A stretch of DNA of 45,691 nt from Thermoleophilia bacterium (GTDB taxonomy: Bacteria > Actinomycetota > Thermoleophilia > BMS3ABIN01), in assembly GCA_014859345.1 (NCBI GenBank), contig JACUUL010000010.1, positions 1 to 45,691 of the forward strand. The letters are read 5' to 3'. Under the pieces are notes generated by a model. It ran no database searches. It saw only the letters and a program-made list of their open reading frames with translations, and was not told the DNA's origin. A program made the translations under genes and the position numbers. This document shows positions 24,364 to 45,691 of this stretch, in pieces (positions within the stretch are counted from its first letter, which is position 1; the number at the start of each line of letters is the position of its first letter).

Positions 24364-25479
24364 ATGCGCATAGGTATTGACCTCTCGGTAATCCAGTCCA
24401 CAAAGAGCGGGGTGGACTGGTACACACATCACGTCATCAAGGAGATCATGGGCCTGCTGGCCCCGCACGAGCATCTCTGCCTGTTTGCCAACCGCGAGAC
24501 CGGATTTGAGAAGGAGGCTGCCGGCCACCCGCAGGTGTCGGTTGTGCGGGGTCACTTCCGTTACCAGGAGCCATGGAGGCAGTTGATGCTGCCCGCCCTG
24601 CTCAGAAAGCACCAGATCGATGTCTGCTTCTTCACCAATTTCGTGCTGTCGGTTTTTGCCCCTTGCCCCATGGTGCTCACTATCCACGATCTGTCGTTCA
24701 AGCTGTTTCCGCGGACCCATTCCCTCAGGAACGTCGTCTGGGCCAGGAGCCTGGTGCCCGTCTCCACCTGGCGGGCCGGCCACATCATCGTCGACTCCAA
24801 CAATACCAAGCTGGACCTGCTCACGGTGATGGGGGTCCGCGAGAGCAAGATCAGCGTCGTCCATCTGGGCGCTTCGGAACTCTACACGCCCGATCCAGAG
24901 CCTGAGGATGAGGAAGTGCTCGCCCACTACGGCATAGTCAAGCCTTATGTGCTCTATGTGGGCACGCTGGAACCGCGCAAGAACCTCCCGATGCTGATCA
25001 GGAGTTTCGACCGGGTGGCCAGAACCAGGTCCGATCTGCACCTGGTGCTGGCCGGGCGCCGGGGCTGGATGGCCCAGGCGATTTTTGACGAGCTGGAGCG
25101 GCGCGATCTCCTGGGACGGGTACACATCACGGGCTATGTGAAGGACGAGAACCTGCCGGCTCTTTACCGGCAGGCGGCGGTGTTCGCTTATCCGTCGCTG
25201 TACGAGGGGTTTGGGCTGCCGCCTCTGGAAGCCATGTCATCCGGAACGCCGGTGATCGTCTCCAAGAGCTCGTCTCTGCCCGAGGTGGTGGGAGACGCGG
25301 GCCTGTACGTGAACCCGCTGGACGCGGAAGAACTGGGGAGGGCGATAGAATCTGTAGTGAGCGATCCCGCGCTTGCCGGCAGCCTGAGGGAAAAAGGTTT
25401 GAACCGGTCCCGCCAGTTCAGCTGGAAAAAGACGGCGGCCCGGACGCTGGAAATACTCCGCGAAGCAGCACGTGTATAA
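24364..25479 (+). CDS. GT4 family glycosyltransferase
   Basis: The 371-aa GT-B enzyme resembles family GT4 mannosyl/glucosyltransferases. The N-terminal half shows SGVDWYTHHVI and the MVLTIHDLSF segment; the C-terminal half has YVGTLEPRKNLPMLIRSF, HITGYVKDENLPALYRQA and the nucleotide-sugar E-x7-E motif at Glu281/Glu289 in YEGFGLPPLEAM. It should add a hexose from a nucleotide sugar to a lipid-linked acceptor on the cytosolic face. ATG 24364 begins the standard beta-strand MRIGIDLSVI. A leader ORF stops one base before it. The stop overlaps the first ligase-like gene by 8 bases, so the two are coupled. Confidence 0.92.
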   Translation: MRIGIDLSVIQSTKSGVDWYTHHVIKEIMGLLAPHEHLCLFANRETGFEKEAAGHPQVSVVRGHFRYQEPWRQLMLPALLRKHQIDVCFFTNFVLSVFAPCPMVLTIHDLSFKLFPRTHSLRNVVWARSLVPVSTWRAGHIIVDSNNTKLDLLTVMGVRESKISVVHLGASELYTPDPEPEDEEVLAHYGIVKPYVLYVGTLEPRKNLPMLIRSFDRVARTRSDLHLVLAGRRGWMAQAIFDELERRDLLGRVHITGYVKDENLPALYRQAAVFAYPSLYEGFGLPPLEAMSSGTPVIVSKSSSLPEVVGDAGLYVNPLDAEELGRAIESVVSDPALAGSLREKGLNRSRQFSWKKTAARTLEILREAARV

Positions 25480-27232: not shown

Positions 27233-27257
27233 ATCTGGGCTGGGCAGGCAAAAAAAA

Positions 27258-28991: not shown

Positions 28992-29063
28992 TCCTCATTT
29001 CCCTGCAATGTTCTTTCTGGCACTCAAACCTTCCTTGGGGAAATGAGGTCATGTCCCCGAATT
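28977..29063. repeat. REP-like palindromic element between ligases 2 and 3
   Basis: The left arm at 28977-29003 and the right arm at 29038-29063 are reverse complements over 26 bases with one extra base in the left arm; the spacer is 34 bases. Each arm contains GGGGACATGA. The TGA stop of ligase 2 (28989-28991) is inside the left arm. Similar AATTCGGGGACA-type palindromes in other bacteria accompany REP-associated transposases; none is in the window. Confidence 0.8.
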
Positions 29064-29085
29064 GCTGTCGACTCGGCAAAGGGAC

Positions 29086-30891
29086 ATGACTAAAAAACCA
29101 GACTGGCTCACAAAACTGGTGCTAGTGGCGGCGGCCGGCGCCACTTTTTTGATGGCTTTCGAGGTGCGCTGGCCGGTTTTCAGCCTGTGGTCGGTCGGTT
29201 ATACCACTTCCCAGCTGGCAGCCATCATCTTCGTGGCCAGCCTCCTGGCCTGGGCCCCCCGGAGTGGCGCCCGCCTTTTTGCCCGCCGGGCCCTGGACGC
29301 GGGCGTGCTGTTCTTCGTGGCCAGCAATTATCTTTCCGCCATTTTCTCAGCGGATGTCCCCGGCGCCCTCAAATTCTCTTTACGCATGACGCTGGCGGCG
29401 CTGGTTTATTTCGGAATATCGCGGTTGCCGGCCAGGAAAGCGTCGCATCTGGCAGTCTCCGGAGCGATGGCCGCAGGGCTGCTGGCCGTGACGCTGGTGG
29501 GATTTCTGGAGAGCCAGGTGGCCTTTGTCCGCTGGACGCACTGGCTCTCCCCCTGGCAGGAAACCATCGTCACTTTCGGCACTTTTTACAACCTGAGAGC
29601 CTCTTCTACCCTGCCCTTCCCCACAGTGCTTTCCATGTACCTGGAGCTGGCGGCGCCGGTGGCGCTGGTTTTGGGACTCTGGCTGCTGGCGCGCAGACAA
29701 GCCGACAGGGGCAGCCGGCTCTGGTTGCACGGGGTCCTGACAGCCGGCCTCAGCCTCGTAATGACCGTACAGGTTTTTACCTATACGCGGAGCGCTCTGG
29801 TGGCGGTCCCCGTGTCCATGCTGGCGGCTGCCTTGCTGGCGGCGGCCTTTGGCTACGGCAGGCGGGTTGCCGGTTATTTCACCCTGGGCGTGGTCCTGCT
29901 GCTCGCCATCATGGCGATGACGACTCTCATCAGCAACAAAATGGCCAGCCGGATAGGGGTCGCCGAACAGACCAGGCATTACGGAGCAGACTACAGCGTC
30001 GTGGAGTTTCCCCGGGAGATGCAGCCCGGCCGGGAATACGCGGCCCGGATCAATGTGGAGAACACGTCGGACGTTTCCTGGAATCACCAGGGAAGCAACC
30101 GCATCACCATGAGTTACCGCTGGACTGAGTATCCGGAAAAGGCGAACTACAGGATCACGCACCTGGTCACCGAACTGCCGCGCGAGGTCGCTCCGGATGA
30201 GACAATCGAGCTGGAAGTCCCCTTCATGACCCCGGATGACCCGGGACGATACGTGCTGGTGATGGAGCTCGTGAAGGGACACGTGGGCTGGTTCTCCGCC
30301 GACGCCAGCGTGCCGCCGGTGGTCGTGCCGCTTGAATTCGACTCCCGGGGCAGCGCGATATTTTCGATGCCGGAGACCGGCGCGGATTACGTCGAGGCCA
30401 AGCCGATCCTGACTTCACCTTCGCGGACTGTTCTCTGGCGGGCGGCGATCAGGATGTGGAAAGAACATCCCCTGGTGGGTGTGGGGCCTGGCCAGTATCG
30501 ACGGGTCTACCACGAGTATGTCTCGGGGATAGAACCCGACGAGCGCCTCGAGGCTCATAACATCTTCCTGCAGGCCATGGCCAGCACCGGAGTCGTGGGG
30601 CTGGCGGCGATGCTCTGGCTGCTGGCGGCCGCCGCCCGCGCTCAGCTGGGAATGATCCGCGATCGCTCACTGGGAAAGGATGTGCGGTTGATCTCCCTGG
30701 GGCTGATGGCGGCCCTGATCGCCTATGTAAGCCACGGCGTCCTCGATTTCTTCCTGTGGCAGACCGGCATCGCCTTCATGTTCTTTGCCCAGCTGGGTCT
30801 GACCTCGTGGCTCTGGGAAAGACGGAAACCTGGGACATCGGCCTCGTTCACCCGGGATCACGACCTGGATGACCGTCTAGACTTGACCTAG
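29086..30891 (+). CDS. O-antigen ligase-like protein 3 with Ig-like insert
   Basis: This 601-aa paralogue has the same architecture: N-terminal helices, FTYTRSALVAVPVSM, an Ig-like insert at about 301-414 (NTSDVSWNHQGSNRITMSYRW, then VGWFSADASVPPVVVP), and a Wzy_C block with LVGVGPGQYRRVYHEYV. The ligase motif is intact: His491 in AHNIFLQAMASTGVVG. Its C-terminal tail is longer and charged (RDHDLDDRLDLT). ATG 29086 follows AAAGGGAC closely; a TTG at 29062 overlaps the palindromic element and is less likely. Its stop TAG (30889-30891) overlaps the stop of the convergent GT4 gene in the palindrome CCTAGG. Confidence 0.87.
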   Translation: MTKKPDWLTKLVLVAAAGATFLMAFEVRWPVFSLWSVGYTTSQLAAIIFVASLLAWAPRSGARLFARRALDAGVLFFVASNYLSAIFSADVPGALKFSLRMTLAALVYFGISRLPARKASHLAVSGAMAAGLLAVTLVGFLESQVAFVRWTHWLSPWQETIVTFGTFYNLRASSTLPFPTVLSMYLELAAPVALVLGLWLLARRQADRGSRLWLHGVLTAGLSLVMTVQVFTYTRSALVAVPVSMLAAALLAAAFGYGRRVAGYFTLGVVLLLAIMAMTTLISNKMASRIGVAEQTRHYGADYSVVEFPREMQPGREYAARINVENTSDVSWNHQGSNRITMSYRWTEYPEKANYRITHLVTELPREVAPDETIELEVPFMTPDDPGRYVLVMELVKGHVGWFSADASVPPVVVPLEFDSRGSAIFSMPETGADYVEAKPILTSPSRTVLWRAAIRMWKEHPLVGVGPGQYRRVYHEYVSGIEPDERLEAHNIFLQAMASTGVVGLAAMLWLLAAAARAQLGMIRDRSLGKDVRLISLGLMAALIAYVSHGVLDFFLWQTGIAFMFFAQLGLTSWLWERRKPGTSASFTRDHDLDDRLDLT

Positions 30892-32009
30892 GCAGCCGCC
30901 TCGCGCAACACCTCAAGAGTGCTTTTCGCCGTCTTCTGCCAGGTAAACTTCGCCGCCCGCTTCTTGCCCCGCTCCATCAGCAGGTTCCTGGTGCCTGAAT
31001 CCGAGGCCACCAGCTCCATCGCGGCCGCCAGTTCCTCCCTGTTGTCCGGGTCGATGAGCACCGCCGCGTTTCCGGCCACTTCGGGCAGCGATGACCGGTT
31101 CGACGTGATGACCGGAGTCGATGCCGCCATCGCCTCCAGGACCGGCAGTCCGAAACCTTCATAAAACGAAGGAAAGACAAGGGCTGTGGCCATCCTGTAG
31201 ACAGCGGGCAGATCGCCTGCCGGGAGGTAGCCGGGTGAGTAGAGAGAGCCGGGCCGCAGGCGGTTCAGGGCGCCGGCCATTCCCGCCTCGGCAAAAATGC
31301 GGTTTCCGGTTCCGGCGATGACCAGCTTGTGGCCGTCTGTGACCTCGTCTGGCAGGAGCCTGTAGGCTTCCAGGACTCCCCTCAGATTCTTCCGGGGCTC
31401 CAGGCTGGACACCGAGAGGAAGAACCTGGCGGGCAGGCCGTGGCGGCGGCGCACTTCCTCCATCTCTTTCCTGGTCACGCGCCGGCGGAAGGCGGGAGAG
31501 ACGCCCAGCGGGATGACGCTGATCTTGCCGGACGGCAGCCCCAGCCGGTTCTCCAGGTCCATGCGCGTGCTTTCGGAATCGGTTATGACCCGGGACGCCT
31601 GCCTGGCTATCAACGGAACGGCGGCGCGGTAGTAGAGCGCGAAGCCCCGGGAAAAGTATTCAGGAAAAAGGAGGAAAGTGAGGTCATGGATGGTAACGAC
31701 GCCTGGAACCGGCGGATAGAGGGGGGCTACGTTGGCCGGGTTAAAGAGCACGTCGATATCCGCTTTTTTCGCCATCTTTCTCAGCACGGTCTGTTCCCAG
31801 ACCAGGCCGCGCCCCGGGCCGCCGGCGGGCAAGGCGCTGGTTGCCAGCGGCAGACCGGATTCATTCCGGCGGCCTTCCCGGCCCGAGAAGACCGTAAACC
31901 GGACTCCGGACTCGAGGTCCAGAAGCGCGCGGGTTACCTCCCGGGCATAGTGCTGGACGCCTGTCAGCTGGCGGAAGATGGAACGGCCGTTGATTCCTAC
32001 ATGCAGCAT
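30888..32009 (-). CDS. GT4 family glycosyltransferase
   Basis: The 373-aa GT-B enzyme is a second GT4 member of the locus. It has the N-terminal GINGRSIFRQLTGVQHYAREV, the VVTIHDLTFLLFPEYFSRG segment, and in the C-terminal half SVSSLEPRKNLRGVLEAY and YEGFGLPVLEAMAAS (the E-x7-E donor site). It resembles mannosyl- or rhamnosyltransferases of capsule clusters, but the sugar cannot be read from sequence. It is the only gene on the minus strand between the ligases and the sugar transferase. TAGAAT lies seven bases before the ATG, so a leaderless mRNA is likely. Its stop codon overlaps that of ligase 3. Confidence 0.9.
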   Translation of the reverse strand: MLHVGINGRSIFRQLTGVQHYAREVTRALLDLESGVRFTVFSGREGRRNESGLPLATSALPAGGPGRGLVWEQTVLRKMAKKADIDVLFNPANVAPLYPPVPGVVTIHDLTFLLFPEYFSRGFALYYRAAVPLIARQASRVITDSESTRMDLENRLGLPSGKISVIPLGVSPAFRRRVTRKEMEEVRRRHGLPARFFLSVSSLEPRKNLRGVLEAYRLLPDEVTDGHKLVIAGTGNRIFAEAGMAGALNRLRPGSLYSPGYLPAGDLPAVYRMATALVFPSFYEGFGLPVLEAMAASTPVITSNRSSLPEVAGNAAVLIDPDNREELAAAMELVASDSGTRNLLMERGKKRAAKFTWQKTAKSTLEVLREAAA

Positions 32010-32281: not shown

Positions 32282-33703
32282 GTGGCGCAAGCAAAACAAT
32301 TCTTTACTTCACACCGGTTTTCCCACCTGTCGCTGATCCTGGGCGACATGATCGCGGTGCTGGTTGGTTACCGGCTGGCTTTCCATTTTTATTTTCAGAT
32401 GGGCGTGTGGTACGTGAGTATCGCTCCCGATACGGAGACGCCCTCCATCAGCTTTTATATGGCGGTGACCTTTGTCATCCTGCCGCTTTACTGGGCCATG
32501 TTCAAGCTCTTCGGTCTCTACCGCTTCCGCCTGAATCTCAGCCTGCTGGAGGTCCTGCCCCATATCGCCTCGGCGGCGACCGTGGCCTCGATGCTGCTGC
32601 TGGCCGCCACCATCGTGGCTTTCCCGCCGGAGCACTATTCGCGAAACGTTCTGGTGCTTTCCTGGATAAGCGTCATCGCGTCGGTGTCTCTGGTGCGTTT
32701 CACTGTTTATCAGCTGCAGAAGTGGGGGCGGCGCCACGGCTGGTATGTGAAGAACACGCTTGTGCTGGGAGCCGGCAAGGTCGGCAGGTCCTGCGCCGGC
32801 AAGATCATGCGCAATCCTGCCCTGGGCCTGAATTTCGTGGGGTTCCTGGACGAGAGCCCGGCGCCGAAGGCCACAGAGGGCTCTTATCAGGTGTTCAATG
32901 ACTACAGCCGTCTGGAGGACATCATCAGTAAATTCAAGATCCAGCACATGGTCATCGCCTTCTCGCAGGACCGTCACGGCCGGATTGTCGAGCTCATGGA
33001 GCGGTGCCGGCCCTATAACGTGGAGTTCACCGTCGTGCCGCGCCTCTATGAGGTTTTCTCCGAGCGCATCGGTGTGGAGCACATCCGGGGGCTGCCGGTG
33101 CTGGGTCTGAAGCGGGGCAGCATCAGCAGGCTGGAAGGGTTAGTCAAGAGGATTATGGACATCGCGATCTCGCTGATGACCCTCATCATACTCTCACCGC
33201 TGCTGCTGCTGACGGCACTTGCCATCAGGCTGGATTCTCCGGGACCGGTTCTGTACCGGCAGACCCGGCTGGGCAAGGGTGAAAAACCTTTCGAGATTTA
33301 CAAGTTCCGCTCCATGCGGCGGGACGCCGAGAAGGGCAAGGCGGGCTGGTCCACCCCGGGTGACGCCCGGCGGACCCGGGTGGGCAGGATCATCAGGCCG
33401 CTGGGCATCGACGAGCTGCCACAGCTGGTCAACGTGCTCAAGGGCGAGATGAGCCTGGTGGGGCCCCGGCCGGAGCGTCCGGAGCACGCGGAGAACTTTC
33501 GGAAAGAGATTCCAACATACGGCAGCCGCCACCGGGTGCGGCCTGGCCTGACCGGCTGGGCCCAGATCAACGGACTCAGGGGCGACACCGATATCGGCGA
33601 GCGGATAGAGCACGACATCTATTACATCGAGAACTGGAATCCCTGGCTGGATATAAAGATCATGCTGAAGACAATCCTTGCCTTCGTGAACAAGGACGCG
33701 TAG
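32282..33703 (+). CDS. Undecaprenyl-phosphate sugar phosphotransferase (WbaP/WcaJ type)
   Basis: This enzyme starts glycan assembly by moving a sugar-1-phosphate from a nucleotide sugar to undecaprenyl phosphate at the inner membrane. The 473-aa protein has four N-terminal helices, a middle nucleotide-binding-like domain (LVLGAGKVGRSCAGKIM), and the C-terminal bac_transf domain from about residue 280. That domain shows KRIMDIAISLMTLIILSP, PVLYRQTRLGKGEKPFEIYK, the FRSMRRDAE catalytic segment, GEMSLVGPRPERPEH and RPGLTGWAQINGLRG. All signature blocks are intact. GTG 32282 is the only sensible start. It is the single initiating transferase in the window. Confidence 0.94.
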   Translation: MAQAKQFFTSHRFSHLSLILGDMIAVLVGYRLAFHFYFQMGVWYVSIAPDTETPSISFYMAVTFVILPLYWAMFKLFGLYRFRLNLSLLEVLPHIASAATVASMLLLAATIVAFPPEHYSRNVLVLSWISVIASVSLVRFTVYQLQKWGRRHGWYVKNTLVLGAGKVGRSCAGKIMRNPALGLNFVGFLDESPAPKATEGSYQVFNDYSRLEDIISKFKIQHMVIAFSQDRHGRIVELMERCRPYNVEFTVVPRLYEVFSERIGVEHIRGLPVLGLKRGSISRLEGLVKRIMDIAISLMTLIILSPLLLLTALAIRLDSPGPVLYRQTRLGKGEKPFEIYKFRSMRRDAEKGKAGWSTPGDARRTRVGRIIRPLGIDELPQLVNVLKGEMSLVGPRPERPEHAENFRKEIPTYGSRHRVRPGLTGWAQINGLRGDTDIGERIEHDIYYIENWNPWLDIKIMLKTILAFVNKDA

Positions 33704-33915: not shown

Positions 33916-34938
33916 TCACGCCGGCCGCACCGGCCTGTCGCAGGCTGCTTCCCGGTAACGGGCCGTCCAGTCCTGGACCCTCTGGTTGTACTTGTCCAGG
34001 ATCGGAAAGCGGTTATCCTGCTTGTGCAGCTTGATGCGGTTCCGCCTCATGGTCAGCGAGGCGCCGGGAGAAACGCTCGCGAGCTTCCGGCTCTGTAGCT
34101 TTCTGACCGCCATCTCGAGCAGGTCTCCCACCGGGCCGGCCAGCATTTTTTCCACGGTTCGCTGCTGCCGCCGCCACCGGGGACTGGCGGGCAGCCGGCA
34201 GTCCTGCAGTTCGATATCCGGCAGATAGGAAGGGAAAACGTCGTAGATCCAGCAGTTGGCCGCCCGGAAGCGTTCAAAGGCCGGGGCATTGTACACAGGC
34301 AGGGCTCCCAGGATCTCGCGGGCGTAGAACATGTTCCGGTTGCTGAAAACCAGATCGCCCTCCGTCAGGAAGACATTGAAGCAGATGTCCGGATTCTGTC
34401 CGAAACGCCGCCACAGCCTGAGAAAGAAAAAGGTGCTCCAGATACGGCGGCGCGCGGAGATGATCAACAGGTCGATATCGTCGCCGGCGGGAGAGTTGAG
34501 GGCGGCCAGCGCGCCCGTGATCGCCGCCGCCCTGAGGAAGGGAACTCCCTGCAGGGGGATTATCCGCCTCAGGGCGATGTCCAGCTGGCGCCGTGATTCG
34601 GCTTCGCGGTCAAGGCGGCGCTGGCAGTTGTCATCCCGGCCATCGAGGTAGTAAAGATTCCCTTTCTGCTTGACAACCGTCCTGAGCTCCTCGCTGGAGC
34701 GCAGCCTGGCGGCGGCTTCGTCGATGGTGATCCTGACACCGGGGACGAAGCGGACGATCTCTTCCAGGGTCAGCGCGAATCGGAAAATGTCGGCATAACA
34801 GAGGGCGGCAACGATGGATTCATCAATGCGGCGACCGGCCTCCGGGGTGATTTCAGCCGGCTTTTCCACCGGACCCCCCGGGGTTGTCGCGCCCGGCTTA
34901 TGCGCCGGACCAGGAACGGATTGGATATTGGACGCCAT
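33916..34938 (-). CDS. Nucleotidyltransferase-fold protein with N-terminal helical domain
   Basis: The 340-aa protein has a winged-helix-like segment at about 38-100 (ALCYADIFRFALTLEEIV, then KGNLYYLDGRDD) and a nucleotidyltransferase core: TGALAALN at 141-148 and DDIDLLII at 153-160, matching the GS-x10-DxD pattern with TGAL for the usual GS. Asp154 and Asp156 would bind metal. The family is found in polysaccharide and surface loci of diverse bacteria, with no assigned reaction that I know of. The C-terminal third is basic and rich in Arg/Lys. The gene is alone on the minus strand, facing the sugar transferase, and has the clearest promoter of the window. Confidence 0.7.
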   Translation of the reverse strand: MASNIQSVPGPAHKPGATTPGGPVEKPAEITPEAGRRIDESIVAALCYADIFRFALTLEEIVRFVPGVRITIDEAAARLRSSEELRTVVKQKGNLYYLDGRDDNCQRRLDREAESRRQLDIALRRIIPLQGVPFLRAAAITGALAALNSPAGDDIDLLIISARRRIWSTFFFLRLWRRFGQNPDICFNVFLTEGDLVFSNRNMFYAREILGALPVYNAPAFERFRAANCWIYDVFPSYLPDIELQDCRLPASPRWRRQQRTVEKMLAGPVGDLLEMAVRKLQSRKLASVSPGASLTMRRNRIKLHKQDNRFPILDKYNQRVQDWTARYREAACDRPVRPA

Positions 34939-34958
34939 GTTACGAATTCCTGTAAAAA

Positions 34959-34987
34959 AGTATATGCTTTCAGGCGGTGATTCTCAA
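34959..34987 (-). promoter_or_regulatory. Sigma-70 promoter of the nucleotidyltransferase-like gene
   Basis: On the minus strand TTGAGA (34987-34982), an exact 17-base spacer and TATACT (34964-34959) precede the ATG at 34938. The -35 box overlaps the first base of the divergent glycosyltransferase start codon at 34987. An AGGA site precedes the ATG. Confidence 0.75.
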
Positions 34988-36075
34988 TGAGGGTGGCTAT
35001 CGCACATGAATGGCTGACGACTCTGGGCGGCTCCGAGCGGGTTGTGGAGGCGCTCCTGGAGCTGTACCCGGACGCCCCAGTTTACACGGCTTTTCATTCC
35101 AGCCGCAATCTTCCCGAAGTTGTGAAGAAGTGGGACGTGCGCACCTCCTTCGTGCAGAGCCTCCCCTTCCTGAACCGGATAGCCCAGAAATACATCCCTC
35201 TCTTTCCCCTGGCGTTCGAGTCCTTCGACCTCTCCGGCTACGACCTGGTGATCTCTTCCAGCTCAGCCTGCGCCAAAGGGGTGCTGACCGGACCCGGAAC
35301 CCTGCATGTCTGTTACTGCTATACGCCGCTGCGCTACGCCTGGGAGCCGCACCTGGATGCGCGTTTTCAGTTCGGCAATCCCCTGCTTAAGGCCGGCAAC
35401 ACGGCGCTGCTCCATTACCTGAGGATGTGGGACAGGCTGGCGGCCGACCGGGTCGACGAGTTCGTGGCCATCTCCCGCAACGTGGCCGCCAAGATAGGCA
35501 AGTATTACCGGCGCGAGGCCACCGTCATCAATCCGCCGGTGAGCGTCGAGCGGTTCCCGGTCAAGAAGGTCGCGCGCACTTATTTTCTGATCGTGTCCCG
35601 GCTGGTGCCCTATAAGCGCCTGGAGGTCGCGGTGGAGGCCTTCACCAGGCTGGGGCTGCCCCTGAAGATAGCCGGGGACGGGCCGGAACGGGAGCGGCTT
35701 CAGGCCCTGGCCGGGCCGAACATCGAGTTTCTGGGGTTTGTTCCCGACGAGGAGGTGCCGCCCCTGATGGCGGGTTGCCTGGCCCTGATCTTTCCGGGGG
35801 AGGAAGACTTCGGCATCGTGCCGCTGGAGGCCATGGCGGCCGGGCGGCCGGTCATCGGGCTGGGCCGCGGAGGCCTGCTGGAGACCATTCAGGAAGGGAA
35901 GACGGGCCTCTTTTTCCCGGAGCCGGCGCCGGCGTCGCTTATCGATGCCGTCTCGCGCTTTTCCATTCGTGATTTCCAGCCGGCCCGGCTGAGCAAGCAC
36001 GCGGCAAAGTTCTCCAAAGAGCGTTTTAAAAAAGAGATGGCGGATTTCATTGATGCCCGGCTGAGAGAAAGATAG
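34987..36075 (+). CDS. GT4 glycosyltransferase, WbaZ-like
   Basis: The 362-aa GT-B enzyme belongs to the WbaZ-like group of GT4. The N-terminus (MRVAIAHEWLTTLGGSERVV) has the group's glycine loop. CYCYTPLRYAWEP lies mid-protein, and the donor site is PGEEDFGIVPLEAMAAG with the E-x7-E Glu pair. WbaZ-type enzymes are mannosyltransferases in O-antigen synthesis; the sugar here is inferred only by similarity. The ATG has AGGCGGTG seven bases upstream. The YihY-like gene follows after five bases, so both are likely co-transcribed. Confidence 0.9.
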   Translation: MRVAIAHEWLTTLGGSERVVEALLELYPDAPVYTAFHSSRNLPEVVKKWDVRTSFVQSLPFLNRIAQKYIPLFPLAFESFDLSGYDLVISSSSACAKGVLTGPGTLHVCYCYTPLRYAWEPHLDARFQFGNPLLKAGNTALLHYLRMWDRLAADRVDEFVAISRNVAAKIGKYYRREATVINPPVSVERFPVKKVARTYFLIVSRLVPYKRLEVAVEAFTRLGLPLKIAGDGPERERLQALAGPNIEFLGFVPDEEVPPLMAGCLALIFPGEEDFGIVPLEAMAAGRPVIGLGRGGLLETIQEGKTGLFFPEPAPASLIDAVSRFSIRDFQPARLSKHAAKFSKERFKKEMADFIDARLRER

Positions 36076-36080
36076 CGCGC

Positions 36081-37480: not shown

Positions 37481-37504
37481 AAAACCCCGGGCCCCCTCCC
37501 GGGG
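37479..37504 (-). terminator. Intrinsic terminator of the flippase gene
   Basis: Minus strand: CCCCGGG (37504-37498), 6-base loop and CCCGGGG (37491-37485) followed by a TTTTTTA tract at 37484-37478. It overlaps the last codon of the convergent cupin gene. Confidence 0.85.
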
Positions 37505-37509
37505 CGACC

Positions 37510-39003
37510 TCAGACGCTTGCCGAGGGCGGCTGCATGTCAACCGCTTCCTCAGGGGCTGCCCTGCGCGTGAAGATCATCTTGAGGTCGCCAGGATCCACA
37601 ACGCGAAGAACGGTGACCGCGACCGCGTAAAAGACGGCGGCTGCGGCGATGATGGCGGCCGGATGCAGCCTTCCCTTGAGTACCAGTATCAGGCCGCCCA
37701 TGACCAGCGCCACCGCGGCCACCTTGAGGCTCAGCCAGGCTGTTCGCGTCAGCGAGATATTGCGCTTCAGGAGCCAGAACATCTGCGTAAGCCCGATGAT
37801 CTCGGTGGCAAGAGTTGTCGCGGCCGCTCCGGTGAAGCCGTAGCGCGGGATGACAATCAGGTTCAGCGCCACGTTGGCCGCCATGTTCACGGCGCCCACG
37901 ACGGCCACTGCCTTCTGCCTTTCGATGATGGTGAGCAGATTCCCCTGCAAAAAGGTGATGAACCAGACCGGCAGCGTCCAGGACAGCACGGCGAGCGCCA
38001 GGGCCGCAGGAAGGTATGTTTCTCCGAGGAGCATCTGGGTGATCTCCCGGGCCAGCAGCGAGCCGCCCACAGCCATCGGCACCGACATGGCCAGCAGCCA
38101 GCGCGAGGCGCGCTGGAAGGGACCGTCGAGGTTGTCCGTGGGCCGCCTGAAGGCTCCGGCCAGCCGGGGGAAAAGGGCGGCCACCAGTCCCGAAGGCAGG
38201 AACATCAGCGCCGAGATGAGATTGTAGGCGCCGTTGTAGAGGCCCACCTCCTCGTCTCCGCGGAAGAACGAGATCATGACGCTGTCGATGCGGAAGTAGA
38301 CGAGGTAAAAGGCGACGATCAGCCCGAAGGGCAGAGCTGCTTTCAGATAACCCCGCCATCTCTCCCGGTCCAGCGCGATCCGGAAGGGGCCATATTTCTT
38401 CCAGACGAGCCACACCGACAACGCTCCGCCGCCGAACTGGACGGCCGTGTGGGAGAAAGCGACTGCCAGGAAGCTTCTGCCTGCCAGCAGAAGGGCCACG
38501 CCGGCCGCCGCGAAAACGGCCTTCTCCAGCAGCCAGAGAAACGCCTGGATATGGAGGTCCTGCCTGACCGAATAGGCGATGGTGGTGGAATAAAACCAGG
38601 AGTAGCCTATCTGGGCAACGGCGAATGCGGCCACGGCCAGGGACGTGGTGGGATCCTTCCCCAGGAAAGGCAACAGCGCGATCATGAGCAGCGCCGAGAA
38701 GCTGGAGAGCGCCGTCTTGAGCCCCAGGACCCCGGCCAGCCTTTCCCTCAACTCCCGCGGCCGGCGGGACATCTCGCGGATGGTGTATTCATGCAGCCCG
38801 AAGTCGCCCAGGATCGAAAAGATCTCCGAGAAGGCAAAGGCGAACATGTACTTTCCGTAGTCTTCCGGTCCCAGCCAGCGCGCCAGGAACAGGAAAAACA
38901 CGAAACCGATGACCGTCCTGGCGAACTGGGAGGAGCTGAGCAGGGCGGCGTTAACGGGAACCCGGCTTTTACCGGACGGCTCAGTCGCTGATTGGGAAGT
39001 CAT
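37510..39003 (-). CDS. Wzx-type polysaccharide flippase
   Basis: This 497-aa protein of about 12-14 helices belongs to the MATE-like polysaccharide transporters, which move undecaprenyl-PP-linked glycan from the inner to the outer face. The N-terminal SSQFARTVIGFVFFLFLARWLGPEDYGKY (read as SSQFARTV and LGPEDYGKY), the GDFGLHEYTIREMSRRP loop and the central FRIDSVMISFFRGDEEVGLYN are Wzx-typical. The next gene upstream on the minus strand is absent, and the divergent phosphorylase shares a 94-base gap. TACTAT eight bases before the ATG suggests a leaderless mRNA. Confidence 0.92.
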   Translation of the reverse strand: MTSQSATEPSGKSRVPVNAALLSSSQFARTVIGFVFFLFLARWLGPEDYGKYMFAFAFSEIFSILGDFGLHEYTIREMSRRPRELRERLAGVLGLKTALSSFSALLMIALLPFLGKDPTTSLAVAAFAVAQIGYSWFYSTTIAYSVRQDLHIQAFLWLLEKAVFAAAGVALLLAGRSFLAVAFSHTAVQFGGGALSVWLVWKKYGPFRIALDRERWRGYLKAALPFGLIVAFYLVYFRIDSVMISFFRGDEEVGLYNGAYNLISALMFLPSGLVAALFPRLAGAFRRPTDNLDGPFQRASRWLLAMSVPMAVGGSLLAREITQMLLGETYLPAALALAVLSWTLPVWFITFLQGNLLTIIERQKAVAVVGAVNMAANVALNLIVIPRYGFTGAAATTLATEIIGLTQMFWLLKRNISLTRTAWLSLKVAAVALVMGGLILVLKGRLHPAAIIAAAAVFYAVAVTVLRVVDPGDLKMIFTRRAAPEEAVDMQPPSASV

Positions 39004-39097: not shown

Positions 39098-39829
39098 ATG
39101 ACTACCTGGGAAGAAAAATTTGTCCGCTTTATGTCCGAGCGCTGGGTATTCCAGGGGACCGATCCCCATGACTACACCCCCCGGACATTCCTCATGGGCC
39201 TGGGAGAGGACTTCATCAGCCCGCTATTGAAGAAGCACAGGCACTTTGGCGCCCTTTACACGGGCTATCTGGGCGGGAGGCTGGTGGGCTACATGCGGGT
39301 GCCGCCCGGCACTGTCATCCTGGAAGGAATCATGCGGGCGCTCGAGTTTACCCGGGTAGACAAGGTAATCGGGATCGGCACGTGCGGCGCCCTGCAGCCG
39401 GAGATCGAGCTTGGTGAAATCGTCATCGCCGAATCTGCCGAGGCGGGGGACGGCCTCAGTCCCCATTATGGAGTGGAGCCGGGGGCGATGGTGGCCGCCG
39501 ACGGGGCTCTCACGGATTCTCTGGGGGAGTCTTTGCGCGGCGCCGGCCTGAAGGTTCATTCTGGCGCCGTCGTCACCACCGGGGCTGCCTTCCGGGAGAC
39601 AGATGAGATGATAGACAACTGGAGGCGGGCCGGCCTGCTTGGGGTGGAGCTGGAGACGTCCTGCCTGTTGGCGCTGGCGAGGTTTACGGGAGTAAGGGCG
39701 GCTGTAGCTCATCTGGTGACGGACAGCCCGGTCCGGATGGCGACAAGCGACGGTGTCCTGCGCGGTAAAAATCGGCATGATTTTGTCAAAGGCATAACGG
39801 ACTTCATGACCTCTCCCACCCTCGCTTGA
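39098..39829 (+). CDS. Nucleoside phosphorylase-like protein (PNP/UDP family)
   Basis: The 243-aa protein has the phosphorylase fold of uridine/purine-nucleoside phosphorylases. The glycine loop KVIGIGTCGAL (from about residue 89) and the late LLGVELETSCLLALA with the Glu-x-Glu ribose clamp fit the family. The N-terminal 40 residues, with PHDYTPRTFLMG, are unlike MTA or purine phosphorylases. It could salvage nucleosides, or cleave a nucleoside-linked lipid, as the HpnG member of this superfamily does for adenosylhopane. The substrate is unknown. It heads an operon with GT2 and radical SAM genes. Confidence 0.82.
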   Translation: MTTWEEKFVRFMSERWVFQGTDPHDYTPRTFLMGLGEDFISPLLKKHRHFGALYTGYLGGRLVGYMRVPPGTVILEGIMRALEFTRVDKVIGIGTCGALQPEIELGEIVIAESAEAGDGLSPHYGVEPGAMVAADGALTDSLGESLRGAGLKVHSGAVVTTGAAFRETDEMIDNWRRAGLLGVELETSCLLALARFTGVRAAVAHLVTDSPVRMATSDGVLRGKNRHDFVKGITDFMTSPTLA

Positions 39830-39845
39830 CCGGCTGACATGACCG

Positions 39846-40595
39846 ATGTCCACAGCCGAGACAACAAGGAGATTGACTGATTTGGGGGCGGAAGCCGAAA
39901 AGACGGCTGTGCTTTCTTCCCGGGAAAAGGTCACCGTGGCGATCCTTGCCCGAAACGAAGAAGCAACCATCGAAAAGGTCATAATGTCGGCGGCGTCGTG
40001 CTGTGGAGACGTCATCGTGATAGACGGCAATTCCACCGACCTCACCCGGGAACTGGCCCGCGCTGCCGGCGCCAGGGTGTACCGGGACGGCGGCAGGGGA
40101 AAGGGCGACGGCATTCGCAAGGCCATAGAAGTGGCCCGGGGCGAAGTGATCGTCTTTTCCGACGCTGACGGCTCGCACGACCCCAACGACATCCCGGCTC
40201 TGGCGGCGCCCATCATCACCGGGCGGGCCGACCTGGTGGTGGGCTCGCGCTGGCGCGGCGGCAGTGACGAGCTGGCGGGCGACATCGCCAAATTCGTCCG
40301 CAGCACCGGCAGCGCCATCATCGCTTTGGTCATAAACTACCGATGGAACATCAGGCTCACCGATGTGGAGAACGGTTTCCGCGCCATCTCGACCGAGGCT
40401 GCCCGCGACCTCGAACTGAAGGAACATGGGTTCACTATCGAGCAGGAGATGATCATGAAGTGCCTGCGAAGGGGATACCGGGTCACCGAGGTCGCCACGC
40501 ACGAATACGTAAGGCAGTCGGGCCATTCACAGCTCAAGGTCTACAAGGTCTGGCACCGTTTTCTCTGGTGCCTGCTCAGGAATCTCATTAAATAG
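39846..40595 (+). CDS. GT2 glycosyltransferase, polyprenyl-phosphate-sugar synthase-like
   Basis: The 249-aa GT-A enzyme resembles dolichyl-phosphate mannose synthase and its bacterial equivalents. Visible motifs are VTVAILARNEEATIEKVI, DVIVIDGNSTDLT, the DxD region EVIVFSDADGSHDP, and VENGFRAISTEAARDLELKEHGF (split: VENGF, ELKEHGF) for the acceptor loop. No C-terminal membrane helices are present, so it is likely a peripheral enzyme. It would form polyprenyl-phosphate-hexose, the donor used by GT39-type transferases such as the gene at 44169. The first 30 residues are non-conserved; an internal start is possible. Its TAG is in the same frame as the next gene. Confidence 0.87.
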   Translation: MSTAETTRRLTDLGAEAEKTAVLSSREKVTVAILARNEEATIEKVIMSAASCCGDVIVIDGNSTDLTRELARAAGARVYRDGGRGKGDGIRKAIEVARGEVIVFSDADGSHDPNDIPALAAPIITGRADLVVGSRWRGGSDELAGDIAKFVRSTGSAIIALVINYRWNIRLTDVENGFRAISTEAARDLELKEHGFTIEQEMIMKCLRRGYRVTEVATHEYVRQSGHSQLKVYKVWHRFLWCLLRNLIK

Positions 40596-40631
40596 TCCAG
40601 TCCGCGAACACAAGCCCATGGGGGTGTCACT

Positions 40632-41996
40632 ATTAAAATCGCTCTGGTGGCGCCACATTCACAGGCGCATACGCTCATACCGCCGCTGGGTCCCGGATAC
40701 CTTGCTGCCAGCTCCCGGTCTAGAGGTCATGAGGTCACCATTTTTGATATGGCAAAGGAGGGCTGGGGCGCCGGCCGCGGGGCAGAGGCTGTCGCCAGTT
40801 ATGGGCCGGATCTGGTCGGCATAAGCATCCTCAGCACTGCTTATCTGCCTGCCCGGGATCTCGTGTCGGCGATCAAGGAACGGCTTTCCGGCGCCATCGT
40901 GGTCGTGGGCGGTCCCCACGTGACGGCGCTTCCCGAAGCTACACTGGAGGATCTCGGTGTCGATATCGCCATGGTCGGCGAGTCTGAACACACATTTCCT
41001 CAACTGATCGACCGGCTCGATTCAGACGGGTCGCTGGAAAGCATGCCCAGCCTTTGCTACAGGGAAGACGGCGGTTTCCGGCAAACGCGGCGTGCCGATT
41101 TCCACCCGGATCTGGACAGCCTGGAATTTCCCGCGTGGGACCTGATGGATCCCCGCGCCTATCCAGACAAGCCGCATCAGCTGCTGCACAAGAAGTTTCC
41201 GGTGGCGCCAATCATCACGACACGCGGCTGCCCCTACGATTGCATATTCTGCTCCTCGACCATCCTTTGGGGCAAGCGCCTGAGAACCCGGTCGCCGGAA
41301 AATGTTCTGGATGAGATCGAGATGCTGGTGCGCGAGTATGGCGTCAGGGAGATCCATTTCGAGGATGATAACTTCACGCAGAAACGCAGCCATGTCAAAA
41401 ATGTGTGTGAGGAGATCCTGAGGCGGGGCCTGAAGTTCGTCTGGTCGTGCCCGAACGGTGTCCGCATCGACTCTCTTGACGACGAGATCCTGGCCCTGAT
41501 GCGGCGTTCCGGATGCCACAGCCTGGGGCTGGGGATTGAATCGGGCAGCCAGGAGGTTCTGGACCGCAACCTTAAACGCCTGGACCTGGCCAAAGTATCC
41601 GAACAGGTGGACATGATAAGATCGCACGGGATCGCCGCCCACGGTTTTTTCTTCATCGGCTTGCCGGGAGAGACCGAGGAAACCGTGAAACAGACCATCA
41701 GGTTCGCGCGCGAGGTGCGTTTCAGCCGCGCCAACTTCAGCTTGCTGACGCCGCTGCCGGGGACCGCCATATATGACGAGTTCGTGGCCGGCCAGCCGGG
41801 CAAGCTGGACTTCAGGACGCTTAATTTCTTCACACCTTTTCCAATCGGCGAGCTCGGCGCGGAACAGCTCAAGCGCTGGCAGCGGCGCGCCGTCCTGGGT
41901 TTTTATTTAAGGCTTGGGCCCATTGCCCATCTGATTTCCAGATTCAGATTGTCACAGACCGTCAAGATATTGAAGGCACTGTTGGATTACACGTAA
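40632..41996 (+). CDS. B12-binding radical SAM enzyme 1 (probable ATT start)
   Basis: This is a 454-aa class B-like radical SAM protein. It has an N-terminal cobalamin-binding Rossmann domain (PPLGPGYLAASSRSRGHEV, VVVGGPHVTALPE), the [4Fe-4S] motif CPYDCIFC (Cys200, 204, 207), an EDDNFT strand and GLPGETEETVKQT. The frame holds no ATG, GTG or TTG between the previous in-frame TAG (40593) and GTG 40647. The first beta-strand KIALVAPHS begins right after an ATT at 40632, preceded by GGGGGTG. I take ATT as start; GTG 40647 would lose the strand. Enzymes of this type methylate unactivated carbon or cyclise; the substrate is unknown. Confidence 0.87.
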   Translation: MKIALVAPHSQAHTLIPPLGPGYLAASSRSRGHEVTIFDMAKEGWGAGRGAEAVASYGPDLVGISILSTAYLPARDLVSAIKERLSGAIVVVGGPHVTALPEATLEDLGVDIAMVGESEHTFPQLIDRLDSDGSLESMPSLCYREDGGFRQTRRADFHPDLDSLEFPAWDLMDPRAYPDKPHQLLHKKFPVAPIITTRGCPYDCIFCSSTILWGKRLRTRSPENVLDEIEMLVREYGVREIHFEDDNFTQKRSHVKNVCEEILRRGLKFVWSCPNGVRIDSLDDEILALMRRSGCHSLGLGIESGSQEVLDRNLKRLDLAKVSEQVDMIRSHGIAAHGFFFIGLPGETEETVKQTIRFAREVRFSRANFSLLTPLPGTAIYDEFVAGQPGKLDFRTLNFFTPFPIGELGAEQLKRWQRRAVLGFYLRLGPIAHLISRFRLSQTVKILKALLDYT

Positions 41997-42025
41997 TTAC
42001 GGGTTGATCTGAGATAAAGGTTCTA

Positions 42026-43435
42026 TTGTTAAATCCACCCCCCCTCGATGGGGTCAACGTAGTGCGCGAGGGACGCTGCATGCAGCGGACCAGCGCCTGG
42101 ACCACCGTCTGGGCGCCGGTATCGCTGGCGACTTCGGCATCCGTGCTCAGGGACCAGGGCTTCGACGTGAGGCTGGCCGACTGCAGCGTCGAGGATATCG
42201 ACTGGCCTGGCCTGTCCACGCTCATCGCGTCGTACAGGCCCGGGCTGGTCATCATCAATACGGCCACTCCATCGATCAATGGTGATCTGGAAGTTGCCCG
42301 GGTGGCCCGGGAAGTGTGGCCGGAGGTCAAAACCCTGGCCATGGGCATCCATCCCAGCGCCCTGGGAGATGACTGCTTCGATCTTCAGCAGGAGCTGGAC
42401 ATGGTAGCCCGCGGCGAGCCGGAGTACACCATCCGGGACGCGGCCGTGGCTATTCGCGAGGGCACCAGGCTCGAAACAGTGGCCGGCCTTTCTTTCCGGG
42501 ACAAAGACAGGAAGGTGGTCCATAACCGGCGGCGGGGCTTCATCGACAATCTGGACTCGCTGCCCTTCCCGGCGTGGGACCTGGTCGATACCGGACTGTA
42601 CCGCATGCCCTTCAGCGGCGAGCGTTTCGTATTGATAGCTACAGCCCGCGGCTGTCCCTACGCCTGTACTTTCTGCGCCAACAAGGCTTACTATGGATCG
42701 CGCCTGAGACGCCGGTCCCCGCAGCGGGTAGTGGATGAAGTCGAGTGGGTGAGCAGGAAGCACGGCATCAAGGAATTCCTGTTCTGGTCGGAATCTTTCA
42801 CCAACGACCAGGAATATGCCATCGAGGTGGCCGAGGAAATCACGCGGCGGAACCTGAACGTGAGCTGGGTATGCAACAGCCGGGTGGACACGGTCTCGCC
42901 TCTGCTGCTCAAGGCCATAAAGGAGGCCGGCTGCTGGATGATCGGCTATGGCATCGAGAGCGGCAACCAGCAGGTGCTCGACTCGGTGCGCAAGGGAACG
43001 ATGCTGACAGACGCGATAATGGCCGTGCGCATGGCCCACGACGTGGGCCTGGAGGTCACGGGTCACTGCATCCTGGGCTTCCCCGGAGAGACGGTCCAGA
43101 CCATGCAGGAGACCATCGAGTTCGCCAAGTTCCTCAGGCTGGACTACGCCCAGTTCTACTGCGCCGTGGCCTTTCCGGGATCGGTCCTTTACCGGCAGGC
43201 CCGTGAGAATGGCTGGCTGGATACCACCGACTGGCGCTATTACGAGCAGAACTTCTCGGTGATATCCGATGACGGTCTCGATTCAAAGCAGGTCATGGAG
43301 GCGCGGGACGCGGCCTACCGCGAATTCTACAAGCAGCCGTATCTCTTTTTGAACGTGCTCCGGAAGGTGAAGAGGCCGGGCGACGTCGTGAACTTCGCGC
43401 GCATGTTCAAGGATTTTCTGGCATGGGTGTCGTGA
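42026..43435 (+). CDS. B12-binding radical SAM enzyme 2
   Basis: This 469-aa protein is related to the previous one. The B12-binding part has SVLRDQGFDVRLADCSVED and KTLAMGIHPSALGD, but the canonical DxHxxG is not evident. The radical SAM motif CPYACTFC is at Cys210, 214 and 217, followed by the ELR-like FLFWSESFT strand and GHCILGFPGETVQTMQE. TTG 42026 has an AAAGG site five bases upstream; codons 42014-42025 read I-K-V-L, so the conserved KVLLLNPP strand would begin at an ATA. The start is unsettled. It follows RSAM 1 after about 30 bases. Confidence 0.87.
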   Translation: MLNPPPLDGVNVVREGRCMQRTSAWTTVWAPVSLATSASVLRDQGFDVRLADCSVEDIDWPGLSTLIASYRPGLVIINTATPSINGDLEVARVAREVWPEVKTLAMGIHPSALGDDCFDLQQELDMVARGEPEYTIRDAAVAIREGTRLETVAGLSFRDKDRKVVHNRRRGFIDNLDSLPFPAWDLVDTGLYRMPFSGERFVLIATARGCPYACTFCANKAYYGSRLRRRSPQRVVDEVEWVSRKHGIKEFLFWSESFTNDQEYAIEVAEEITRRNLNVSWVCNSRVDTVSPLLLKAIKEAGCWMIGYGIESGNQQVLDSVRKGTMLTDAIMAVRMAHDVGLEVTGHCILGFPGETVQTMQETIEFAKFLRLDYAQFYCAVAFPGSVLYRQARENGWLDTTDWRYYEQNFSVISDDGLDSKQVMEARDAAYREFYKQPYLFLNVLRKVKRPGDVVNFARMFKDFLAWVS

Positions 43436-43445
43436 CCGCCGGCTT

Positions 43446-44135
43446 ATGCGATTAGTCAAATTCGATATCACCCGGGTGGAGGGCTATCCTTTTAAGGCAA
43501 GCGCCGAGGCGAAGGAGGAATACGGCTCGGACAGGGAGCATCCAATCCTCGACCGTTATTTCGACGCCAGCGCGCCGGTGAGGTACTTTTACTGGAAGAA
43601 ACTGGAGATGCTCTGCGACCTGGATGAATACGACGGGGGAGGGACCGCGTTGGCCGCCGGCTGCGGGCCGGGCGTGGAGCTGCCTACCCTGGCCACCGGC
43701 TTCAGGAAGGTCATCGCCCTGGATTTAAACGGCGACGATCTGGAAATCGCCCGGGCCATCTGCCGGGCCGAGAACCTGGCCAACGTGGAGATAGTCGAAG
43801 CCGACCTGCTGGACCCCGGTGAAGGTCAGGACGGGGCCGATACGGTCTTTCTGATTGACGTCCTGGAGCATTTCCCTGACCCGGCTCCGGCGGTGGAGAG
43901 CGTCTACCGCCTCTTGCCCGAGGGCGGAAAGCTGGTCATGGTTGCTCCCACGGAAAACCGCTTGAATGACTGGTTGCGCCGGGCCCTCGGTTACAGCAAG
44001 CCGGCCACCCACTATCATGATTCCCGGGCGCTGGAGCAGGCGGCGCGCCGGCGGTTCCGGCTGGCCAGAAAGGTGCGCCCGTTCGGTCTTCCCCGGGCGT
44101 TGTCACTGTCAGAGATTTTCCTATTTGTCAAATAG
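43446..44135 (+). CDS. Class I SAM-dependent methyltransferase
   Basis: The 229-aa protein has a Methyltransf_11-type core: motif I GTALAAGCGPGVELPTLA (the usual LDLGCG is changed to LAAGCG), KVIALDLNGDDLEIARAI for motif II, TVFLIDVLEHFPDPAPAVE and LLPEGGKLVMVAPTENR for later motifs. The N-terminal 50 residues carry DREHPILDRYFDASAP with no named match. It lies in the operon after two radical SAM genes and before a GT39-like gene, so a role in modifying the glycan or carrier is inferred. The stop falls 33 bases before the next start. Confidence 0.83.
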   Translation: MRLVKFDITRVEGYPFKASAEAKEEYGSDREHPILDRYFDASAPVRYFYWKKLEMLCDLDEYDGGGTALAAGCGPGVELPTLATGFRKVIALDLNGDDLEIARAICRAENLANVEIVEADLLDPGEGQDGADTVFLIDVLEHFPDPAPAVESVYRLLPEGGKLVMVAPTENRLNDWLRRALGYSKPATHYHDSRALEQAARRRFRLARKVRPFGLPRALSLSEIFLFVK

Positions 44136-44168
44136 CGCGGAAAAAAACCATCAATCCCAAAGATTAAA

Positions 44169-45691
44169 ATGATGTCATTCCAAGGAAGCGAAGCGGCTGA
44201 CGAATCTGCCTTTGACGAATCCGCGAAGCGGTTCTGGACGCCCGGCCGCATTCTGGCGCTGCTGATCGGCGCGGCGGTCCTGCTCAGGGTGGCGGCCACG
44301 CTCACGCGCCAGATGGTCATGGCGGACGAAGTCGCCTACGTGCGCATCGCGGAGAACCTGGCCGCAGGCAACGGCTTTGTTGACGTAACCGGAGGCGGCA
44401 CCATTTACGCGCCTTTGCTGCCCATGCTCATGGCCGGCCTGGGCTTTCTGTTGCGCGACTTCATCCTGTCCGGCTATATCGTGGTGATTATCTTCGGAGG
44501 ACTGTTGCTGATCCCGGTGTACCTGCTGGGCCGGGATCTCATCGGCGAGAGGGTGGGGCTGATGGCGGCCGCGCTCATGGCAGTCCAGCCCTTTTTCATC
44601 AGCACCTCCGAGTTCATTTACAGCGAGGTGCTATATATCTTCTTCCTGCTGATGTCGCTGTTCTTCGGTTGGCACGTCCTCAAGGAGCAGCGCCTGAAGT
44701 GCGGGGCGGCCGCGGGCATCTGCCTGGGGCTGGCATACCTGGCGCAGCCGTCGACCCTCTATTACCTTATCGGCCTGCTGGGGTTGATGGCCGCCGCCGC
44801 CGTCCGGACCCGCGGGCTCGCGAGGATGGCGGGAGCCGCCGGCGCTCTCTTGTTTGCCTTTCTGCTTTTTGCCGCGCCATATGTGACGTTCCTGCATGCG
44901 GAGCTGGGACAATGGACCTTTACCGACAAGTCAATGGGCGGCGGCCTCCATTCAGCTACTCACAATATCAGGCGCGAGGACGTTGCCGCGTCGGAAAGGC
45001 TGCTCATGTCCCTGACCGCTGAGGAAAAAGAGCCGGTGGTGCTGGCTCTGGAGCGGGATAAGACAACCCCCTTTGGCTTCCTGCTGGGAAACCCCGGGGC
45101 GGCGGCAAGGAATTTTTTGCGGCAGTCATTTTATTTCCATGAATCCATCCTCTCCCGGGTCTTCCCCCTGTGGCTGCTGCCGCTTCTGGGGCTGGGCCTT
45201 TTTACCCGGGAGTGGACGCGGCAGCGGGCGGCGGCGGTAGGATACCTGGCGCTGATGATCTCACCAATGCTGCTGGTGCTCGCCATTTACGCCCATGCCC
45301 GGTTTTTCATGCCGTACGTGTCTCTGGCGATGATCATGGTAGCGGCCGGCTGGATGCGGCTGGAGGATTGGGGACGGCAGACGGCCCGGTGCAGCTTCAG
45401 GGGCGCCTGGAGGGAGAGGCTGGCGGGCTGGGCTCCGTGGCTGGTAGGAGTGGCGGTGCTGATGCCGCTGTTGTTCTATTCAGGCCTGATGCTGAAACAA
45501 CGGTCTTACGAAACCCAGTACAAGGAAGCCGGCCTGTGGCTGAAAGAGCACGGCGGCGAGGGCTCCAGGATCATGGACCGCACGTATTCCGCGGCTTACT
45601 ATGCCGGCGGCATGTTCGTGCTGCTGCCCTACGCGGATTACGAGGATATGACTGCGTATGCCCGCAAACGGGATGTGGACTATCTGATCGT
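44169..45691 (+). CDS. GT39/ArnT-like glycosyltransferase (partial, runs off the window)
   Basis: The frame stays open from ATG 44169 to the window end (507 codons). It is a GT-C membrane enzyme with about ten or more helices; the first loop has MADEVAYVRIAENLAAGNGF, with the Asp53-Glu54 pair that is catalytic in PMT/ArnT-type enzymes, and then GGGTIYAPLLPMLM. Such proteins use polyprenyl-phosphate sugars as donors, which the GT2 enzyme upstream could make. The first 23 residues (MMSFQGSEAADESAFDESAK) are soluble and acidic, and the DNA for residues 3-13 overlaps a repeat-like string. ATG 44172 is an equal start. The C-terminal domain lies outside the window. Confidence 0.88.
   Translation, partial: MMSFQGSEAADESAFDESAKRFWTPGRILALLIGAAVLLRVAATLTRQMVMADEVAYVRIAENLAAGNGFVDVTGGGTIYAPLLPMLMAGLGFLLRDFILSGYIVVIIFGGLLLIPVYLLGRDLIGERVGLMAAALMAVQPFFISTSEFIYSEVLYIFFLLMSLFFGWHVLKEQRLKCGAAAGICLGLAYLAQPSTLYYLIGLLGLMAAAAVRTRGLARMAGAAGALLFAFLLFAAPYVTFLHAELGQWTFTDKSMGGGLHSATHNIRREDVAASERLLMSLTAEEKEPVVLALERDKTTPFGFLLGNPGAAARNFLRQSFYFHESILSRVFPLWLLPLLGLGLFTREWTRQRAAAVGYLALMISPMLLVLAIYAHARFFMPYVSLAMIMVAAGWMRLEDWGRQTARCSFRGAWRERLAGWAPWLVGVAVLMPLLFYSGLMLKQRSYETQYKEAGLWLKEHGGEGSRIMDRTYSAAYYAGGMFVLLPYADYEDMTAYARKRDVDYLI

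Follow-up and report, generated by a model that had tools for sequence, protein, structure and literature searches.

Six co-directional genes at the end of the window

The window analysed here is a stretch of 45,691 nt from a Thermoleophilia bacterium (assembly GCA_014859345.1, contig JACUUL010000010.1) and corresponds to the entire contig C62 of a 2.08 Mb metagenome-assembled genome (MAG) in 122 contigs. Its last part, from 39098 to 45691, is occupied by six co-directional genes of the + strand separated by gaps of only 16, 36, 17, 10 and 33 bp, two of which encode radical S-adenosylmethionine (SAM) enzymes with a B12-binding domain. Pfam matches bear out the gene identities that an earlier note, made from the DNA letters alone, had proposed for this set:

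39098..39829, + strand: NP, nucleoside-phosphorylase-fold protein (NP-I, PF01048; PNP_UDP_1, E 1.7e-27)
39846..40595, + strand: GT2, AglJ/DPM-synthase-like glycosyltransferase, probable polyprenyl-phosphate-sugar synthase (Glycos_transf_2, 5.7e-22)
40632..41996, + strand: rSAM1, B12-binding radical SAM enzyme (Radical_SAM, 6e-25; B12-binding, 2.5e-21)
42014..43435, + strand: rSAM2, B12-binding radical SAM enzyme (Radical_SAM, 9.9e-26; B12-binding, 3.6e-12)
43446..44135, + strand: MT, class I SAM-dependent methyltransferase (Methyltransf_11, 5.7e-14)
44169..45691 (contig end), + strand: PMT_2/GT39-like membrane glycosyltransferase, partial (PMT_2, 2e-11)

The GT39-like gene is incomplete because position 45691 is the contig end, with 507 aa of its product visible versus about 550 in relatives, and the operon may continue past this point. 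Codons found at the start of rSAM1 (ATT at 40632) and of rSAM2 (ATA at 42014) are unusual when compared to most orthologues, which have ATG there, and neither gene has an ATG, GTG or TTG at the orthologue start position. For rSAM2, an in-frame TGA occurs just upstream, so that the only ordinary start left lies inside the first strand. Either rare start codons are used twice or the assembly consensus is in error at these positions. A promoter scan returned a site count no higher than that obtained in shuffled sequences.

The occurrence of these genes was compared in 18 genomes of the same family, in 41 other genomes of the class and in 396 genomes sampled from the phylum. The family is one of uncultured subsurface Actinobacteria, and the named relatives sharing these genes, Bacterium BMS3Abin01 among them, are MAGs designated as Thermoleophilia or Actinomycetes. 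NP is found in 17 of the 18 same-family genomes, rSAM2 in 16 and rSAM1 in 11, while rSAM1 and rSAM2 were detected in none of the 41 other genomes of the class and NP, at a strict threshold, in none of the 396 phylum genomes outside the family. The order NP-GT2-rSAM1-rSAM2 is contiguous in 10 relatives belonging to three genera other than that of the window, with 55-68% identity. This order is no chance grouping, since it recurs in these 10 genomes while the YihY and cupin genes located further upstream were not seen at their place in relatives. The gene set noticed earlier is thus conserved beyond a single genome. MT and GT39 are not fixed next to rSAM2 in relatives, and MT has no orthologue at that position.

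Farther downstream, the relatives carry a tandem pair of ArnE/ArnF-like small membrane genes, a further radical SAM gene (rSAM3), a second GT2, a SPASM radical SAM gene, a DegT sugar aminotransferase (best model ArnB) or variants, a DUF2079 gene, a GT39 and rSAM4. A second, contiguous block GT2-rSAM2-GT39 occurs in one of them (G018), and three relatives devoid of rSAM1 (G005, G009 and G013) have another methyltransferase in the locus. In G013, the rSAM2 copy of the locus (L044:12379-12951) has undergone two internal in-frame deletions that removed most of the radical SAM core but left a frame of 192 aa open, and a full-length rSAM2 is found elsewhere in that genome. In G000, contig C92 (33 kb; L053, L054) corresponds to an island where at least seven B12 radical SAM genes occur together with GT39, flippase genes and a SPASM-like radical SAM gene; it includes an rSAM1 paralogue (56%).

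Such variation raises the question of whether the genes have a joint product at all. They might be tailoring genes that have loosely accumulated in a hypervariable polysaccharide region and are kept together by descent only, as would fit with MT and GT39 varying in place or identity between relatives and with the loss of rSAM1 in seven of them. We regard this as rather unlikely: the four-gene core has stayed contiguous and similar in 11 genomes of four genera while nearby genes were replaced. An on-off pattern such as that of rSAM1 and of the other methyltransferase would be expected for variable glycan tailoring.

A surface-polysaccharide locus directly upstream

The 16 kb upstream of the six genes (23117-39003) correspond to a complete surface-polysaccharide locus of the Wzx/Wzy type with a LytR-CpsA-Psr (LCP) ligase, in which the initiating transferase, Wzx, Wzy and LCP all occur together:

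23117..24211, + strand: LCP ligase, likely polymer-to-wall attachment (PF03816, 3.5e-46)
24364..25479, + strand: GT4 glycosyltransferase
25472..27232, + strand: Wzy_C polymerase/ligase 1 (PF04932)
27195..28991, + strand: Wzy_C polymerase/ligase 2 (PF04932)
29062..30891, + strand: Wzy_C polymerase/ligase 3 (PF04932)
30888..32009, - strand: GT4 glycosyltransferase
32282..33703, + strand: initiating sugar-phosphate transferase (PGT; Bac_transf, PF02397, 1.1e-70)
33916..34938, - strand: conserved protein without Pfam match, position kept in relatives
34987..36075, + strand: GT4 glycosyltransferase, mostly 71-75% identical in relatives
37510..39003, - strand: Wzx-type flippase (Polysacc_synt, PF01943, 8.8e-32), divergent from NP, 64-71% identical in relatives

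NP starts 95 bp beyond the flippase gene that terminates this locus. Among relatives whose available sequence extends far enough, the order LCP-GT4-Wzy-GT4-PGT-(conserved protein without Pfam match)-GT4-Wzx, followed by NP, recurs in several genera. Because this order is kept and NP comes directly after Wzx, we place the six genes at the downstream end of the surface-polysaccharide locus. The stand-alone glycolipid or carrier pathway that the earlier note had envisaged is not supported, the genes being appended to a conserved locus of this kind.

All components known from Wzx/Wzy-dependent loci with LCP attachment, such as those for Gram-positive capsule or wall polysaccharide, are shared (PGT, GT4s, Wzy_C, Wzx and LCP); the window differs in having, in addition, B12 radical SAM enzymes and an NP-fold protein, and in its three Wzy_C paralogues. 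The latter are arranged in tandem (25472-30891) where the loci of relatives have one. LCP enzymes attach polymers to the cell wall and, with such an enzyme encoded in the locus of an actinobacterial host, the product is likely to be a polymer attached to the wall. Other differences concern the vicinity of the flippase: the YihY and cupin genes that lie between GT4 and the flippase in the window were not seen at that place in relatives and, in G004, about 7 kb separate Wzx from NP and include histidine sensor kinase, response regulator and phosphoenolpyruvate-synthase-like genes (L037:16256-19998).

Relatives of the individual proteins

The best model for GT2 is AglJ (TIGR04182), with 144.9 bits against an equivalog cut-off of 325, which indicates the same GT2 subfamily only; as judged from this match, the protein is a probable polyprenyl-phosphate-sugar synthase. 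The ArnE/ArnF-like genes of the relatives, found in the same locus in 12 of them, lie between rSAM2 and rSAM3 and are divergent to the operon (e.g. L037:10847-11657). Together with the AglJ match, they support the earlier suggestion that GT2 and the GT39-like enzyme may respectively make and use a polyprenyl-phosphate sugar. Three-component systems for extracytoplasmic glycosylation consist of a GtrB-type GT2, a small flippase and a GT-C enzyme (PMC11127046). When compared to these systems and to the Arn pathway, GT2 and GT-C are shared, as are the ArnE/ArnF-like pair and the DegT aminotransferase in relatives; radical SAM enzymes are foreign to them, however, and a single-sequence search found no ArnE/ArnF-like small flippase in the window's genome.

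Both rSAM1 and rSAM2 possess a CX3CX2C motif, invariant in rSAM1, and a B12-binding domain, which places them among the B12-dependent radical SAM enzymes, with C-methylation as one of several candidate reactions. For rSAM1, the best NCBIfam match is, by a narrow margin, ApyD (178 bits), a model for enzymes acting on ribosomally synthesized and post-translationally modified peptides (RiPPs). Modification of a protein or peptide by the radical enzymes, in the manner of RiPP C-methyltransferases, is nonetheless very unlikely: rSAM1 is about equally far from the ApyD, BchE, ladderane-type and BzaD models, with bunched scores that are all far under the cut-offs, the neighbouring genes are sugar genes, and neither a precursor peptide nor a peptidase could be recognised in the annotation of the locus.

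rSAM2 carries the N-terminal signature REGRCMQR, with the pattern REGRC-QR kept throughout the family. Its best-scoring characterised relative is HpnJ (TIGR03471), the radical SAM enzyme of the bacteriohopanetetrol cyclitol ether, with which it shares the B12-binding and radical SAM domains and aligns over its full length with 31% pairwise identity. The score of 273.9 bits stays far under the cut-off of 577.6, while two plasmid proteins used as HpnJ controls scored 843.9 and 805.3 bits. When 39 proteins were compared in a tree, rSAM2 formed its own clade outside HpnJ plus the Lawsonia protein; branches are long and support is moderate, but this position argues against membership of the HpnJ clade. 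The predicted fold of rSAM2 matches TsrM, AprD4, MgmA and OxsB, at the level of fold class only given a model with a predicted local distance difference test (pLDDT) score of 65. The radical SAM diol dehydratase AprD4, among the top three structural matches, has as substrate an aminosugar, paromamine (from the PDB title); the AprD4 sequence model gives 115 bits against a cut-off of 500. HpnJ makes the cyclitol ether from lipid-linked glucosamine (PMC12583986) and is listed among the non-methylating cobalamin radical SAM enzymes (PMC13142503).

The full-length alignment to this modifier of a lipid-linked sugar also speaks for a rival reading, in which the genes make a new membrane glycolipid, or a polyprenyl carrier in modified form, that has no connection with the polymer; GT2 and GT39 would glycosylate the lipid, the radical enzymes would methylate or cyclise it and NP would cut a nucleoside-linked intermediate like HpnG does. 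PMT_2 enzymes can indeed glycosylate lipids, as ArnT does. The host, however, has no hopanoid pathway: no squalene-hopene cyclase (PF13249) was matched in the window's genome, the best HpnH score was 51.1 bits against a cut-off of 225 and NP scored 38 bits against the 187.1 of HpnG (TIGR03468). With HpnJ likewise under its cut-off, we reject a hopanoid link, and the HpnG analogy drawn in the earlier note falls with it. Since the genes moreover sit on the conserved Wzx/Wzy/LCP locus, we consider such a glycolipid unlikely, and none of the present findings is indicative of a new lipid.

Outside the family, the only strong rSAM2 relative in the 396 genomes belongs to another actinobacterial family (G272; profile score of 500 bits, 40% identical to the rSAM2 of the window, with REGRCEQR retained). 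It is found in an exosortase locus (L110:3386-12191), preceded by an XrtG-like exosortase, an XrtG-type glycosyltransferase and a PTPS_related membrane gene and directly followed by a PpgS/AglJ-like GT2, itself resembling polyprenyl-phosphate-sugar synthases; no exosortase (PF09721) was matched in the window's genome. More distant B12 radical SAM relatives occur on plasmids of Lawsonia, Solidesulfovibrio and Azospirillum within sugar-polymer loci, next to glycosyltransferases, sugar kinases, GDP-fucose synthase and aminotransferases. On the Lawsonia intracellularis plasmid, an HpnJ-like radical SAM gene (L080:6837-8300; 375.8 bits, under the cut-off) lies in a sugar/methyltransferase cluster. 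In the papers covered by a literature search, no direct precedent was found for surface-glycan loci with B12 radical SAM enzymes.

The structure model of NP (91 pLDDT) matches the folds of 5'-deoxy-5'-methylthioadenosine (MTA) phosphorylase and purine nucleoside phosphorylase (PNP), MTA phosphorylase being the closest solved relative by profile (5.3e-18) and by fold (7.5e-18). In DeoD, R43 and R87 are phosphate ligands, Asp204 is catalytic and Glu179/Glu181 bind ribose. NP shares with the Sulfolobus solfataricus MTA phosphorylase and the DeoD PNP (NP-I) the fold and the nucleoside-site acids, of which the equivalents D209, E184 and E186 are invariant. It differs by the loss of the Arg87-type ligand in all 17 orthologues, where a 17-row alignment has Gly92, or Ser in two, and by His49 at the position of Arg43; a phosphate-dependent role like that of HpnG is therefore unsupported.

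5'-Deoxyadenosine is an inhibitor of radical SAM enzymes, and its salvage proceeds through MtnN or MtnP (PMC8102628). NP could thus be tied to the radical enzymes only by clearing 5'-deoxyadenosine or MTA, with no role in glycan synthesis. This concerns NP alone, would be compatible with a tailoring role of the other genes and is a serious possibility, if somewhat short of an even one. The kinship with MTA phosphorylase is in its favour, as is G001, which keeps NP near rSAM3 without rSAM1 and rSAM2, and a relative of NP on a Streptosporangium plasmid (L084:8665-9525, 34% identity) also lies near a radical SAM gene. Against it, the window's genome already has a bona fide MTA phosphorylase (317.9 bits, cut-off 274.85) and a paralogue, which weakens NP as sole salvage enzyme for 5'-deoxyadenosine or MTA, and the loss of the Arg87-type ligand argues against a phosphorylase, but not against a nucleosidase. 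The Streptosporangium cluster further includes an aminotransferase, a Gfo/Idh oxidoreductase and aminoglycoside phosphotransferases, and possibly makes an aminoglycoside-like product.

A putative tailoring arm for a surface polymer

Taken together, the six genes probably represent the tailoring end of a family-wide Wzx/Wzy/LCP locus, whose products would edit a lipid-linked or activated sugar and add it to a wall or capsular polymer, rSAM1 and rSAM2 probably making the unusual sugar. On the inner side of the membrane, GT2 would load a sugar onto polyprenyl phosphate. By means of 5'-deoxyadenosyl radicals and cobalamin, rSAM1 and rSAM2 would remodel this sugar, either on the lipid or prior to loading; the reaction could be a C-methylation, a dehydration or a rearrangement of the ring. 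MT would add an ordinary methyl group. Once flipped across the membrane, the modified sugar would be transferred on the outside by the GT39-like GT-C enzyme, in the manner of three-component systems (PMC11127046); the acceptor would be the polymer that PGT, the GT4s, Wzx and Wzy produce and that LCP anchors. The gene identities, the polysaccharide context, the conservation and the linkage of rSAM2 to GT2 and GT-C genes are observed, whereas substrate, step order and radical chemistry are inferred. NP is the weakest link of this scheme; as a working guess, it might plausibly remove a nucleoside that the radical reactions leave as by-product, such as 5'-deoxyadenosine.

This explanation is favoured by the polysaccharide genes lying directly upstream, and recurring in the same order in relatives, by the contiguity of NP-GT2-rSAM1-rSAM2 in 10 relatives, of GT2-rSAM2-GT39 in G018 and of rSAM2 and GT2 in G272, by the ArnE/ArnF-like, DegT, GT2, GT39 and DUF2079 genes of the locus tail in relatives, by the related genes in sugar-polymer loci on plasmids, and by the sugar substrates of both HpnJ and AprD4. 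Several observations weigh against it. The absence of rSAM1 from seven and of rSAM2 from two of the 18 family genomes means that neither is essential to the polymer, and G001 has retained NP in spite of lacking the two radical enzymes. The Wzx flippase is divergent from the tailoring genes, so that any co-transcription of these with the polymer genes would be hypothetical; the low model confidence for rSAM2 and the small flippase that the single-sequence search did not find in the window's genome add to these points.

A more specific proposal, which we put forward as speculative and improbable as it stands, is that rSAM2 would define a new subfamily of B12 radical SAM enzymes (REGRC-QR type) and would rearrange a sugar linked to polyprenyl phosphate, for instance by an HpnJ-like ring contraction to a carbocycle. 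The resulting wall or capsular polymer would then contain a cyclitol or branched sugar that was formed while attached to the lipid carrier.

Substrates are known for few cobalamin radical SAM enzymes, and those that do not methylate, OxsB, HpnJ and BchE, are particularly obscure (PMC13142503). Two cobalamin radical SAM enzymes kept with a GT2 of the polyprenyl-phosphate-sugar type, a GT-C transferase and a complete polysaccharide machinery name a testable substrate class. Since polymer loci of Desulfovibrionaceae and Azospirillum, as well as an exosortase locus, also contain similar genes, these data suggest that surface sugars may be subject to B12 radical chemistry more commonly than has been recognised.

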